Source: Gammaproteobacteria bacterium (GTDB taxonomy: Bacteria; Pseudomonadota; Gammaproteobacteria; Pseudomonadales; Azotimanducaceae). From it: a stretch of 32,070 nt of DNA. Of the stretch, positions 9,573-24,915 are shown piece by piece. The DNA lies in NCBI GenBank assembly GCA_030123805.1, contig JASJXV010000023.1, positions 1 through 32,070 on the forward strand, written 5' to 3'. Numbering within the stretch: position 1 is the stretch's first letter; each line of letters starts with the position of its first letter. The position numbers were made by a program, and so were the translations under genes. Under the pieces are notes generated by a model. The model was not told where the DNA came from. It made no database searches and saw nothing but the letters and a program-made list of their open reading frames with translations.

Positions 9573-10043
9573 TTATGAATCGCCGTGCACGTGGCCGTGC
9601 GATAATTCTTCCTGTGTCGCATCGCGTACAGCAGTGACTTCGATATCAAAGGTCAATTTTTTCCCCGCCCATGGGTGATTGGTATCAATGGTCACCATAA
9701 ATTTACCAGCCTTGACCACAGTGACTTGCTGTTTACCCTGTTTCGTATTTACCGTAGCTGTCATGCCGGGTTGCCACCGTTTTGCGCCGGCAAGATGTTT
9801 CATTGGGATTCGTTGTTCGGAGTCTTCCCGGCGGATACCATACGCGTTGGCGGGTTCAAGGGTCACACTAAAGGCATCTCCCGCGCTCTTGTTAACCAGG
9901 ACTCTTTCCAGAGCCGGCATAATATTTTTATAACCGTGGAGATAAGTATTGGGTGTACCTGCATGGGTAGATTCGAGTTCTTCGCCAGCGTCGTCCGTAA
10001 TTACATAATGGAATTGAGCCACTTTATTCCGGGTGATTTTCAT
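9573..10043 (-). CDS. slyD: SlyD-type FKBP peptidyl-prolyl cis-trans isomerase
   Basis: The protein has 156 residues. The N-terminal FHYVITDDAGEELEST and YLHGYKNIMPALERVL belong to the FKBP half, and ANAYGIRREDSEQRIPMKHL leads into the insert-in-flap domain (about residues 68-120) that gives SlyD its chaperone activity. The ending VTAVRDATQEELSHGHVHG is nearly diagnostic of SlyD. The metal-binding tail of E. coli SlyD is much reduced here, to HGHVHGDS. SlyD isomerises proline peptide bonds and helps folding and nickel delivery in the cytoplasm. GGAAGGAA before the ATG is a strong ribosome-binding site. It lies 82 nt downstream of the UGSC selenoprotein gene on the same strand, so it could share its transcript. 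Confidence 0.88.
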   Translation of the reverse strand: MKITRNKVAQFHYVITDDAGEELESTHAGTPNTYLHGYKNIMPALERVLVNKSAGDAFSVTLEPANAYGIRREDSEQRIPMKHLAGAKRWQPGMTATVNTKQGKQQVTVVKAGKFMVTIDTNHPWAGKKLTFDIEVTAVRDATQEELSHGHVHGDS

Positions 10044-10125: not shown

Positions 10126-10653
10126 TCATTTAACCTTCTCGGCGAGTGCCTGCACGACGGCATCGATAACGGCATCTGCCTTGCTGCGCATCTGATCATC
10201 AGTCGCATCCTGTACAGGATGGGATACGAATACACAACGAGCATCTTCCAGACCAAGTGCCCTGGCCTGGGTGTTGGCAGCTTCTTTGAACTCGATAGAA
10301 GCCACTGTGACCGATGGAATACCCTGAATTTCAAACCATACCGTGTCATGCAAACTGCACGTGGTACAGGAGCCTCAGTCGGCCAGGGCTTCGATCACAA
10401 AGTCGTTTTGTGCCTTGATCTCCCGGCGAAGTTCGTCCGGCGCGGGTTTGGTAAATGTCGGTTTTGCATATCGATTGATTGTAATACCGGGAAGGCGTTG
10501 CTGTAATGTGGACTCAAATCTGTCCAACAGCAGGCTCCCTTTCGGCTTGGAAATATCCAGTAAAGCTAATCGACCGACTATTTCACCGGTTCGCGGTGAG
10601 AGTTGCCTCGCAACGGGAACCCGTTCGTCGGTGGGGTCAAGAATTGTAGTCAT
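10126..10653 (-). CDS. UGSC-motif selenoprotein, read through an in-frame UGA
   Basis: Two consecutive minus-strand frames are one gene. The first ends ...FVIEALAD at a TGA (10375-10377). The same frame continues GSCTTCSLHDTVWFEIQG to a stop at 10126. With selenocysteine the protein has 175 residues, Sec at 93, Cys at 96 and 99, giving a U-G-S-C-T-T-C redox motif. UGSC-motif selenoproteins have been described from marine metagenomes, with Cys homologues. Their reaction is unknown, but a U-x-x-C pair indicates a thiol/selenol redox role in the cytoplasm. A stem-loop directly after the UGA fits a bacterial SECIS. The flanks read as one domain (PxxRQLSPRTGEIVGRLALLDISKPKG ... ASIEFKEAANTQARALG), with no frameshift. 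Start at 10653 is set by GAGGAG 7-8 nt upstream, which overlaps the end of the preceding gene. The alternative, a nonsense-mutated Cys gene, is less likely because the flanks are intact and the motif matches. SelA/B/C/D are not in this window. Confidence 0.85.
10339..10377 (-). promoter_or_regulatory. Putative bacterial SECIS element
   Basis: On the mRNA strand, a 6-bp stem CGUGCA/UGCAUG (10361-10356 with 10352-10347, one G-U pair) closes a GUU triloop. A lower 4-bp stem UACC/GGUA (10366-10363 with 10342-10339) is separated from it by a 1 x 4 internal loop. The apical loop begins 19 nt after the UGA and its first base is G. Bacterial SECIS elements usually show a short loop with a G among its first two bases, 16-37 nt after the codon. 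SelB would bind here to deliver Sec-tRNA. The fold was made by hand, without energy calculation. Confidence 0.65.
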
Positions 10654-10657
10654 AGTC

Positions 10658-12250
10658 TCACTCCTCAATTTTTCTTGTTACGACAATAGAACCCATGGGT
10701 CCGGTCACCCAGCCATGGAAGGCGCCGGAAAATTTGCCAGCGTCAGATCCGGCTACAACGATATGAATATCCGCCGGCGATCTGAATTTGGCAAGACTGG
10801 CTTCTTGCATCTCTTCTGGCATTGCAGCAAATCTGTCTGCCGGAATGCCGACACCGGACAGCTCATCTGCAAGCAGCTCCTTTACCGGTCTTTTACTCAC
10901 TTCCAGAATTCGATTGCGCACATCTTCTTTGCTGTAGTGACCATCTTTCAGCAGAGTATCAATATGCTCCGGGCATATCACTAACAGGGCATCACTGCCC
11001 ATATATGCTTTTGGGTGGTGGACATTTGCCAGCGCCAGTCCAAAACTCCCTGCCAATTGTGGGGCCGTGAGGGAGGTCTGGTCAACAATCAGAGTTGGCC
11101 CACTGGTCATACAGAGCAGGGTCACGGTTGAATCTTCTTTTTTAAAACCCCGTTCTACATGCAACGGGTCCCAGGGACTTCGCTCTTCCCATTCCGCAAA
11201 GCACATGGTGAATTTCATGGGGTTACCCAGTGTCGGTCTCTCGGTACCGCCAGGCTTCGCTCCCCCGATGTTGCGTATAGCCAGGCGTAACGCACGACCC
11301 GTGGTGGCGTTGGCTCGGGAACCTTGTCCCAGAGCAGAGAGTTTCATGTTCATGCCAATGCGTTCCCTGATGGGACCGTTGACCACCATCACCGGGGATG
11401 CGCCCATGGTTGTTGCCATCACACCATGGATATTGAATTCGTCTGTGCATACAGCCTCCAGAGCGGCGATGACTACTGGCAGATATTCCGGTTTGCAACC
11501 AGCCATCACAGCATTGATGGCAATTTTTTCAATGGTCGCGTCTCCCATATTTGGAGGTACTATGGCAACTACCTCTTGTGAGTCACGGCGCGTGCCGGTA
11601 AGCATGCGCACAACGCGTTCAGGAGTCGGTGGCACCAGTGGTAAGCCATCCGTAAATCCCTGATCGAACATAAACTCGAATTCATCGTCAGCAGCGGCTA
11701 TTTCGATTTTGCGAGCCCGCAATGGACTGTTCTCAGCCTCCGCTTGCAGTCTGTCTGCAATCAGAGGGTCTACAGATAAAGAGCCACAACCGGGACGCCA
11801 TTCGGGAAATTGTTCCCAGTCCACTTCTGGCGCAGGCAGACCCAGATCATTGCTCAGAGTTGTGCAGAGATTTTGCCAATCCTCTCGCACGAAGCCTTCC
11901 TGGCGCTCTATTTCCCGTCCCTCCTGGTCAGATCGGATCAGCGTGGGCACAATCTCCACATCGTAGGCAAAGGAGACTTTCAAACTGCTGTCATCCAACA
12001 TGGGTGCAGACAGATTGAACTGCTTGACCAACTGCAGATTGCCCGCATGGGTTTGTCCCACCAGGTGAACATCGATGCTATCGCCGAATGCCTTGTAACA
12101 GGCTTCCAGAATCGGCATCACCGTTTTGCACGTGGGGCAATCCTCTTTAACAAAACAGATCAGCGATTGCCTGTTGTTAGGAAAACTAATGTCTTCGCCG
12201 ATATTATTTTTCAGTGAAAAGGCAGGCAGCAGGTTATGTGCCTTGCTCAT
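10658..12250 (-). CDS. Thioredoxin-like domain fused to a large UGSC-associated domain
   Basis: A 530-residue cytoplasmic-looking protein. Residues 1 to about 135 form a thioredoxin-like domain with CPTC at 38-41 in the context FVKEDCPTCKTVMPILEAC. Residues from about 145 to 530 form a second, uncharacterised domain. It opens with FPEWRPGCGSLSVDPL, continues with FTDGLPLVPPTPERVVRML and NMGDATIEKIAINAVMAGC, and includes MATTMGASPVMVVNGP and ALRLAIRNIGGAKPGG. I recall this domain from proteins found beside, or fused to, UGSC-family proteins, but I know of no assigned reaction. Its gene ends 4 nt before the UGSC start, and its last codons contain that gene's ribosome-binding site, which implies translational coupling. 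I infer that the CPTC domain recycles the selenol/thiol centre of the UGSC protein. The TGA stop is followed by a fresh start, so the two are separate proteins. A good AGGAGG lies just before the ATG. Confidence 0.8.
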   Translation of the reverse strand: MSKAHNLLPAFSLKNNIGEDISFPNNRQSLICFVKEDCPTCKTVMPILEACYKAFGDSIDVHLVGQTHAGNLQLVKQFNLSAPMLDDSSLKVSFAYDVEIVPTLIRSDQEGREIERQEGFVREDWQNLCTTLSNDLGLPAPEVDWEQFPEWRPGCGSLSVDPLIADRLQAEAENSPLRARKIEIAAADDEFEFMFDQGFTDGLPLVPPTPERVVRMLTGTRRDSQEVVAIVPPNMGDATIEKIAINAVMAGCKPEYLPVVIAALEAVCTDEFNIHGVMATTMGASPVMVVNGPIRERIGMNMKLSALGQGSRANATTGRALRLAIRNIGGAKPGGTERPTLGNPMKFTMCFAEWEERSPWDPLHVERGFKKEDSTVTLLCMTSGPTLIVDQTSLTAPQLAGSFGLALANVHHPKAYMGSDALLVICPEHIDTLLKDGHYSKEDVRNRILEVSKRPVKELLADELSGVGIPADRFAAMPEEMQEASLAKFRSPADIHIVVAGSDAGKFSGAFHGWVTGPMGSIVVTRKIEE

Positions 12251-23467: not shown

Positions 23468-24915
23468 ATCCCACCACCGTCTATACCCAGTCTGGGTGAC
23501 GATGCCATTAGAGTGATTCAGAGATTACCGGGTGCAGCCACAATAGGCATTTCGTCACGACCAAGAATTAGAGGTGGAGATAGCAATGAGGTGCTGGTAA
23601 TGTTTGACGGGGTCGAGTTGGTTGATCCTTTTCACCTGAAGGACTATCAGAGCATTTTCAGCACCTTTAACCCACAGACGATCCAGAATATTGAATATTT
23701 CACTGGTGGTTTTCCAGCTCGCTATGGTAATCGGATGAGTGGTGTATTGGACATTGCCACACAGGAATCAATTAGTTCTCCCGGTGGTGAGTTGGGATTG
23801 AGCGTCTTCTCCACATCAGTTCTGGGATATGGCTACGTGGCAGGAGGAGACTGGTTGGCATCTGTTCGACGCGGGAACCTGGATGTAATTTTGAATGTGG
23901 TAAACCCAGGATTAGGTGACCCCTCTTACCATGATGCTTATTTCCGTTATGGATGGGAATCCGATTCGATCGGCCGATTCGAATTCAATGGGTTGCAGTT
24001 TTCAGACGATATCAAATTTGTCCAGGAGCTGATGACCGCGAATTCTGATGTCACCAACAATTATGTCTGGTTCACATGGGAAAAGGAGTGGTCCCAGGAT
24101 CTCTATACTCTTCGAACCAACTCACGATACTGATTATAGATTGAGTGCGGGTCGTTTTTACCAACCCCAGGCTATTCATGAGTTGCAAGTATCTGATGGT
24201 GAATCCCGGTTTTTTTAAAGCGCAATATGCCGATCATGCAATTGCGAGTATTACCCACCTGTTGTCACCTGATATAAGCATCAAGGCAGAATATTTTTTC
24301 AAGCGGATGAAAGATTTAAAGCCGCGTTATGAGAACCTGTTTACTGATCTTGTTATTGTGCCCGAATTGGAGGGAGACAGATTCCAGATTAGTGCCAGCG
24401 AGGGGAAGTCCAGGGGTATTGAACTCGGCATAGAAAGAAGTCTCGCGGATTCCGTATCATGGTATCTGAATTATGCCTACGCAAAGGTTCAAGATAACGA
24501 CAGTGGGCGTTGGATTTCCAGAAGATGGGATCAACGTCAAACTGTAAATGCCGGGATGACCTGGGAACCGGGTTTATGGAAGTTTTCAATTGCCGCCGGT
24601 TGGCACTCAGGCTGGGCTTTTACGACACTACCGAATGAGCTGGAAACCGACACCAGCATCGAAATTTCTGCTATTCGTAGCAATCGACGTGCGCGTGATT
24701 ATAGCACCCTCGATATGAAAGTCAGCAGGAACTTGCTGCTACCGGGTTCAACCATTTCAATTTTTATTGAAGTGACCAATGCGTTTAATCGTAACAACAA
24801 TGGTGCGATCGACTATGAAATATCCGAGGAAGAGGGTCTGTTTATTCTGGAAGAGATGGATGTGGACCCGGTTTTGCCACTGGTTACATCCATTGGCGTT
24901 CTGTGGCGGTTTTAG
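23468..24915 (+). pseudogene. TonB-dependent receptor, disrupted
   Basis: The first part (to about 24120) is a plug domain and first barrel strands: LGDDAIRVIQRLPGAA, VMFDGVELVDPFHLKDYQ, NIEYFTGGFPARYGNRMSG. It breaks at TGA (24131). A second frame then gives TDYRLSAGRFYQPQAIHELQ. It runs into a T7 run (24210-24216), and one T fewer restores the third frame, FKAQYADHAIASITHLLSPD onwards, to the natural end VTSIGVLWRF. A full receptor of this type has some 700-800 residues. Here the N-terminus (signal, regulatory domain) and an internal block near 24125 are missing, plus the T-run frameshift. Complete receptors take up siderophores or other ligands across the outer membrane. The last stop lies 2 nt from the stop of the FecR relic on the other strand. 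Confidence 0.85.

Follow-up and report, generated by a model that had tools for sequence, protein, structure and literature searches.

The window (the whole 32,070-nucleotide stretch of DNA that was analyzed) contains a minus-strand frame interrupted by one TGA. This locus raises the question of whether the codon ends a gene or is read as selenocysteine (Sec) and, if it is Sec, what the full-length protein does together with its neighbors.

Reading frame of the UGSC gene

The frame at 10653-10126 (minus strand) runs from an ATG to a terminal TGA and contains, in translation, exactly one internal TGA, at residue 93 (10375-10377, minus strand). A sequence-only reading of this DNA had described a single frame split by nothing but this codon, whose halves join without a change of frame. 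Both points were borne out, and the gene (10126-10653, minus strand), which belongs to the UGSC family of selenoproteins, is one continuous frame of 175 residues read through one UGA. The codon for Sec93 is found in the motif D-U-G-S-C-T-T-C, which has the form UxxCxxC (Sec93, Cys96, and Cys99), within the segment EALAD-U-GSCTTCSLHD. The ATG is located 4 nt past the stop of the upstream gene (10658-12250), and a Shine-Dalgarno-like GAGGAG (10661-10666, minus strand) within the 3' end of that gene precedes it by 7 nt, in agreement with the earlier assignment of this signal to the upstream gene. As had also been stated, the second half has no ATG of its own; taken alone, it can start only at a TTG (10353) that lies within the motif and opens the ORF 10126-10353.

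TGA terminates genes here, including the partner gene upstream and the UGSC gene itself, and a true stop at residue 93 would mean either a pair of short proteins or a gene disrupted by nonsense mutation. Additionally, 30 TGAs in the window are preceded by 92 open codons, and 4 of the 30, the UGSC TGA included, have at least 82 open codons after them, so that, judged by length alone, a TGA with such open flanks is no rarity in the window. The UGSC frame stands above chance because of homology: one family model spans both halves, and relatives share the position of the TGA. Termination at this codon is extremely improbable in view of the 48 of 51 family matches that carry one TGA and read on through it, the lack of a usable start for the second half, the conservation of the part after the UGA in distant Cys forms, and the SECIS signature described below. 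In particular, H145-P146 is invariant in 34 aligned sequences, distant Cys forms among them. Homologues that always end at the UGA, which the sequence-only reading had named as evidence against itself, are thus not what was found. For annotation, the consequence of taking such a UGA as a stop is that the redox center and half of the protein are lost.

Family membership and relatives

The joined protein, for which a database search had been suggested, exceeded both curated cut-offs of the UGSC (seleno)protein family, namely NF041046 (161.3 bits, cut-off 125, residues 28-170) and PF24696 (159 bits, cut-off 25, residues 3-171). It shares with the family the (U/C)GSC motif, in which Sec occupies the conserved column of Sec/Cys exchange, and the member in the window has no feature that distinguishes it from the others. 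A sequence search of the PDB gave no relative of UGSC.

Within the same order, 25 of 293 genomes contained UGSC, with 36 matches, 34 of which had one in-frame TGA. The survey of the class (369 genomes) gave 15 further matches, 14 with the TGA, and the two surveys together account for the 48 of 51 mentioned above. Among the 45 of these 51 loci that were inspected, the TGA was found in [DHN]-U-GSC at 35 and in U-S-[STL]-C at seven; the remaining three were L047 (Ser), L042 of G052 (Cys), and L090 of G626, whose Sec site was not located. A scan of named genomes, which by design detects Cys codons only, identified Cys at the site in 38 of 38 loci, which by species name belong to Alpha-, Beta-, and Gammaproteobacteria, Bacteroidota, and Actinomycetota. 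The relatives thus carry Sec or Cys where the sequence-only reading had allowed that Trp or another residue might count against it; Trp was present in no sequence read, and one paralogue from the same genome (L047) has Ser. The order alignment (A1) consists of the window, which is itself locus L023, together with 25 of 29 further order loci, the omitted four being L020, L032, L034, and L040, and alignments A3 and A4 each include 33 of the 38 Cys loci. In viral contigs, 18 stretches fit the motif pattern, none of which encodes a UGSC relative.

The paralogue L047 (G000:C183:17444-17875) is the second UGSC gene of the source genome; Ser replaces Sec in its motif (SESC), and a search beside it revealed no partner gene. 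Another gammaproteobacterium (G621, 3.5 Mb) harbored ten UGSC matches (L088 and L092-L100), all with one in-frame TGA. The four of these that were read whole (L088, L094, L096, and L100) are fusions to the partner domain; by eye, signal-peptide-like starts are present in seven of the ten, and U-S-[STL]-C replaces UGSC in six.

The UGSC family, its Sec form, and its fusion to a domain called Unknown_1 are already published. With 255 sequences, the family ranked with the most abundant groups of selenoproteins in the GOS survey (PMC2398784). The sequence-only reading had referred to reports of UGSC selenoproteins in marine metagenomes. UGSC has been listed among families whose functions are largely uncharacterized (PMC13188914), and PMC5330540 refers to selenoproteins with the UGSC motif that are read at UAG.

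Recoding signal downstream of the UGA

The sequence after the UGA contains the apical hairpin of a putative bacterial SECIS element (10347-10361, minus strand). The hairpin agrees with the four bacterial SECIS criteria given in PMC13188914 in having a GUU loop (G first), 6 bp, a spacing of 19 nt from the UGA, and an energy of -11.7 kcal/mol. Across the 11 closest rows of the alignment, six of the seven codons from +3 to +9 after the UGA were without synonymous change, as against 0 of 47 other degenerate codons with an invariant amino acid; the p value of this contrast (1.4e-5) is indicative only, as the range was chosen post hoc and the 11 rows are related.

The hairpin (nt 17-31 from the UGA) had 90.6% of its cells paired over 23 distinct rows, a count that covers 23 of 27 distinct rows and omits the four from G621, which do not fit the hairpin. 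Changes on both sides occurred at two of the six pairs (21-27 as CG, GC, and UA; 19-29 as UA and GU), and the covariation score of 0.142 was reached by none of 500 shuffles. Two of the five covariation measures were unremarkable, being reached by 35 and 230 of 500 shuffles, and the structure slid by -1 scored 0.100 against 0.142, with seven both-side cells against five. Pair 22-26 was unpaired in 7 of the 23 rows, and two further pairs were broken in L037, L046, and L087. The folding energy of the 52-nt stretch was no better than that of shuffles (z 0.24). Against Rfam, the window gave no match over the gathering score and one chance-level match near the gene.

Selenocysteine machinery and co-occurrence with SelA

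A look for Sec genes elsewhere in the source genome, as proposed by the sequence-only reading, was successful for tRNA-Sec (64.9 bits, anticodon TCA), SelB (453.9 bits), and SelA (588.2 bits, on a different contig from the window), and unsuccessful for SelD. The SelB and SelA matches are 29 bp apart. The source genome (G000) is an incomplete assembly rated 94.8% complete, in which SelD gave no match; the AIRS_C domain, which is shared with SelD, occurs in it only as two stretches of one 1304-residue frame, presumably PurL. SelD model matches were present in 60 of 61 family genomes, with G000 the sole miss, and an assembly gap is the likelier explanation of this absence.

Across 67 genomes, SelA scored over its cut-off in 27 of the 28 that have the TGA form, in neither of the two with only other UGSC forms (G052 and G626, both 75% complete), and in 4 of 37 genomes without UGSC, which were taken from the top of the non-matching list and not at random (Fisher p 5e-13 for 27/28 vs 4/37). 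The only TGA-form genome without SelA over the cut-off was G426. This genome is 97% complete and contains a UGSC-type frame with an in-frame TGA (G426:C55:671-1075, L089). A further predicted selenoprotein of the source genome is the PrdB-type L115 (G000:C121, from 1172 on), whose frame runs past the TGA in PVUPLC.

Decoding of the UGA as Trp or by leaky near-cognate readthrough would likewise produce the full-length chain, and it is scarcely credible beside the Cys at all 38 named loci (from the Cys-only search), a set of sequences read in which Trp is nowhere seen, and the presence of tRNA-Sec, SelA, and SelB, with SelA tracking the TGA form. The product that the sequence-only reading had proposed, a protein of 175 residues with Sec93, is thus supported by the family models, the relatives, the SECIS signature, and the three components of the Sec pathway.

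The partner gene

The upstream gene (10658-12250, minus strand) encodes a partner protein of 530 residues, composed of an N-terminal thioredoxin-like domain of the ResA/StoA type (11831-12250, minus strand; residues 1 to ~140, motif CPTC) and a C-terminal unnamed domain (10661-11683, minus strand; residues 190-530), which is fused to UGSC in some genomes. The partner is a near-constant companion of UGSC. The profile of the unnamed domain found matches (34 in total) in the same 25 of 293 order genomes as UGSC, and tblastn located the partner near UGSC at 38 of 38 Cys loci and at 28 of 30 order loci, the two others being L045, which lies at the edge of a contig, and the Ser paralogue L047. Many partner/UGSC pairs overlap by ATGA, and the two proteins form a single chain in L043 and in the four G621 fusions.

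The unnamed domain is rich in invariant residues; neither Pfam nor NCBIfam gave a significant match to it, and a sequence search of the PDB gave no relative. Weak matches of the partner family were to MTTB (6 of 34 members, best E 0.0064) and to LWXIA (E 0.049), and in the structure comparison of the partner the listed matches were taken up by the thioredoxin domain. This domain is probably Unknown_1, whose fusion to UGSC was reported in 2008 (PMC2398784).

The thioredoxin-like domain of the partner resembles ResA/StoA-type thioredoxins, with StoA (3erw, E 1.6e-7) as the best Foldseek match and a VIA Z of 15.8 to 3gl3 (rmsd 2.1 over 131 residues), and differs from them in its fusion to the large unnamed domain. 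It was present on the partner at 18 of 19 loci from L018 to L036 (L022 is cut) and at 24 of 38 Cys loci. In the other 14 Cys loci (L069 being cut off) it was not detected; therefore, the domain is not universal on the partner. Thioredoxin-less partners at L073, L074, and L077-L082 end in a cysteine tail of the form D-C-(S/A)-(S/T)-G-T-C, and we infer that this C-x-x-G-T-C tail (e.g., in L073 and L082) could have the same role as the thioredoxin domain.

Predicted fold and relationship to GrdB

The AlphaFold model of the UGSC protein, with Cys in place of Sec (pLDDT 91.3, pTM 0.87), consists of five alternating strand-helix units, and residue 93 is placed after strand 85-91 and directly before helix 94-109. 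The best Foldseek match of the model was the FMN reductase MsuE (E 7.5e-5, TM 0.50), and VIA gave a designed protein (Z 11.1), Rv1626 (1s8n, Z 10.2), and a chain of the methyl-CoM reductase activation complex (8s7v, Z 10.2). The matches listed include FMN reductases, flavodoxin, and receiver domains. The modeled arrangement is a common one and indicates no function.

In the NCBIfam search, models of the GrdB type were the strongest non-self matches, TIGR01917 being matched by 6 of 26 UGSC proteins (best E 3.2e-4), and the UGSC protein of the window itself had no match among the GrdB models, even with E allowed up to 10. An hhalign comparison of 59 UGSC sequences with GrdB, based on two GrdB sequences only, gave a score of 48.4 (probability 85%, 81 columns), against at most 19.3 for 60 column-shuffled decoys and 21.6 for the reversed sequence. 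With GrdB, GrdF, and GrdH (TIGR01917, TIGR01918, NF040794, NF040795, and PF07355) and with PrdB (TIGR04483), UGSC has in common the UxxCxxC motif in register and, after it, similar G-I/M-P and H-P segments; the aligned region surrounds the Sec site and comprises about 80 residues. The U93-G-S-C96-T-T-C99 of UGSC fits the UxxCxxC of GrdB, a component that binds glycine and releases ammonia (PMC13188914).

No UGSC protein came near the curated GrdB cut-offs (TIGR01917, at most 18.2 bits against 602.2; NF040794, 18.9 against 800), and PF07355 had no match in UGSC. GrdB is also the larger protein, with about 430 residues against 175 for the UGSC of the window, and a search for GrdB in 398 genomes of the phylum returned partial matches only, at profile positions ~202-345. 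In G226, GrdB adjoins a gene that we take, from its position, to be GrdE; this gene shows no likeness to the UGSC partner, and hhalign of the partner with two GrdE-position proteins gave a probability of 0.1. A multi-subunit selenoenzyme can be listed as a trait common to both systems, which for UGSC is a proposal from the genes. UGSC organisms presumably include aerobes, unlike the setting of GrdB. Because of the hhalign signal, the distance of every member from the curated cut-offs, and a partner unlike GrdE, UGSC is, on sequence grounds, distantly related to the C-terminal part of GrdB, which bears the Sec, and is not a GrdB. The marine PrdB-like selenoproteins showed no profile likeness to UGSC (probability 0.1), a result that, at the level of profiles, speaks against a broad Grd/Prd link.

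Proposed function

Given the single frame, the conserved UGA, the Sec/Cys exchange, the SECIS signature, the co-occurrence with SelA, the pairing with the partner, and the homology to GrdB, all of which were established here by computation, we consider it very probable that the UGSC selenoprotein, with Sec93 inserted at the UGA via the SECIS, and the upstream partner form a two-gene unit and a candidate self-contained, thioredoxin-driven, selenium-dependent reductase of small molecules. The substrate would be held between UGSC and the partner domain and attacked by Sec93 as the nucleophile, and this attack would leave a selenenyl-sulfide between Sec93 and Cys96 (or Cys99). The thioredoxin domain of the partner could then reduce the selenenyl-sulfide and might itself be re-reduced by thioredoxin reductase or the general thiol pool. 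Such a reductase would in outline be like GrdB.

A general thiol redox protein of the peroxiredoxin- or thioredoxin-like kind, rather than a substrate-specific reductase, was the guess in the UGSC passages of PMC2398784, which call UGSC a 'likely' Trx-fold protein. The UxxC motif and the thioredoxin domain on the partner are in keeping with this guess, whereas the predicted model consists of five alternating strand-helix units, no thioredoxin was among the 50 matches listed by Foldseek or by VIA (an absence from lists that excludes nothing), and near-constant pairing with a large, invariant-rich domain suits a dedicated substrate. We therefore regard a general thiol function as unlikely.

The pair might also handle selenium or a metal, by storage, delivery, or sensing in connection with the Sec pathway, instead of being a catabolic enzyme. 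In G222 and G159, about 1.1 kb separates SelA from UGSC. In G044, G183, G204, and G224, the SelA match is on the same strand as UGSC and starts only 48-84 bp past its stop, and in G621 SelA follows a UGSC fusion by 157 bp. This close spacing favors a role in selenium handling, but the linkage to selA may reflect mere co-inheritance, and Cys forms have the same partner at the 38 named loci. Many species with Cys-form UGSC presumably lack Sec. A selenium- or metal-handling pair thus appears quite improbable, and a two-gene reductase is the reading that we prefer.

More tentatively, and with a good deal of doubt, this two-gene reductase could represent a new class of two-subunit selenium-dependent reductases, which would pair a GrdB-derived Sec domain with an unrelated substrate domain, in many cases one with an integral thioredoxin. 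The class would extend over several phyla, would sometimes be part of a selenium island with selA, and would have ten copies, most of them apparently exported, in one gammaproteobacterium. The UGSC passages of PMC2398784, PMC9312934, PMC13188914, PMC5029168, PMC5330540, PMC7539508, PMC9402790, and PMC7435645 do not mention the near-constant partner, the adjacency of selA, or the kinship of UGSC and GrdB. What is added here is the near-constant partner with its thioredoxin domain, together with a predicted fold, the relationship to GrdB, and, for some genomes, the adjacency of selA. Tying UGSC to a partner, a thioredoxin, and the GrdB reductases would turn an orphan family into a testable two-protein enzyme and provides a functional lead.

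Gene neighborhood

The FKBP-type gene downstream of UGSC (9573-10043), a candidate for a third gene of the operon, was rejected, as it was found at only one of 68 local loci, that of the window itself, in a set in which 30 of the 68 loci have flanks of at most 1.5 kb. Neighborhood clustering did not bring out a clear third gene shared by every lineage. One cluster extended over 36 of 38 loci with 130 frames; its representative runs antisense across the pair, and the cluster was set aside as shadow frames.

Several neighbors were restricted to particular loci. In L049 (about 0.3-4.6 kb), a gene for a beta-keto acid cleavage enzyme is directly upstream of the pair according to Pfam, as it is by clustering in L050 and L054-L056, and a 3-hydroxyacyl-CoA dehydrogenase and an amino acid permease are encoded nearby. 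A dicarboxylate symporter was identified in L060 and, by clustering, in four Methylobacterium loci. L053 has a gene with an ABM domain, and a pyridine nucleotide-disulfide oxidoreductase and a thioredoxin reductase are encoded near L060 and L073, respectively. These neighborhoods do not agree on one substrate. Elsewhere in the window (23513-24915, plus strand), the frames 23513-24133 and 24145-24915 resemble, by eye, a single TonB-dependent receptor, perhaps divided by a frameshift.
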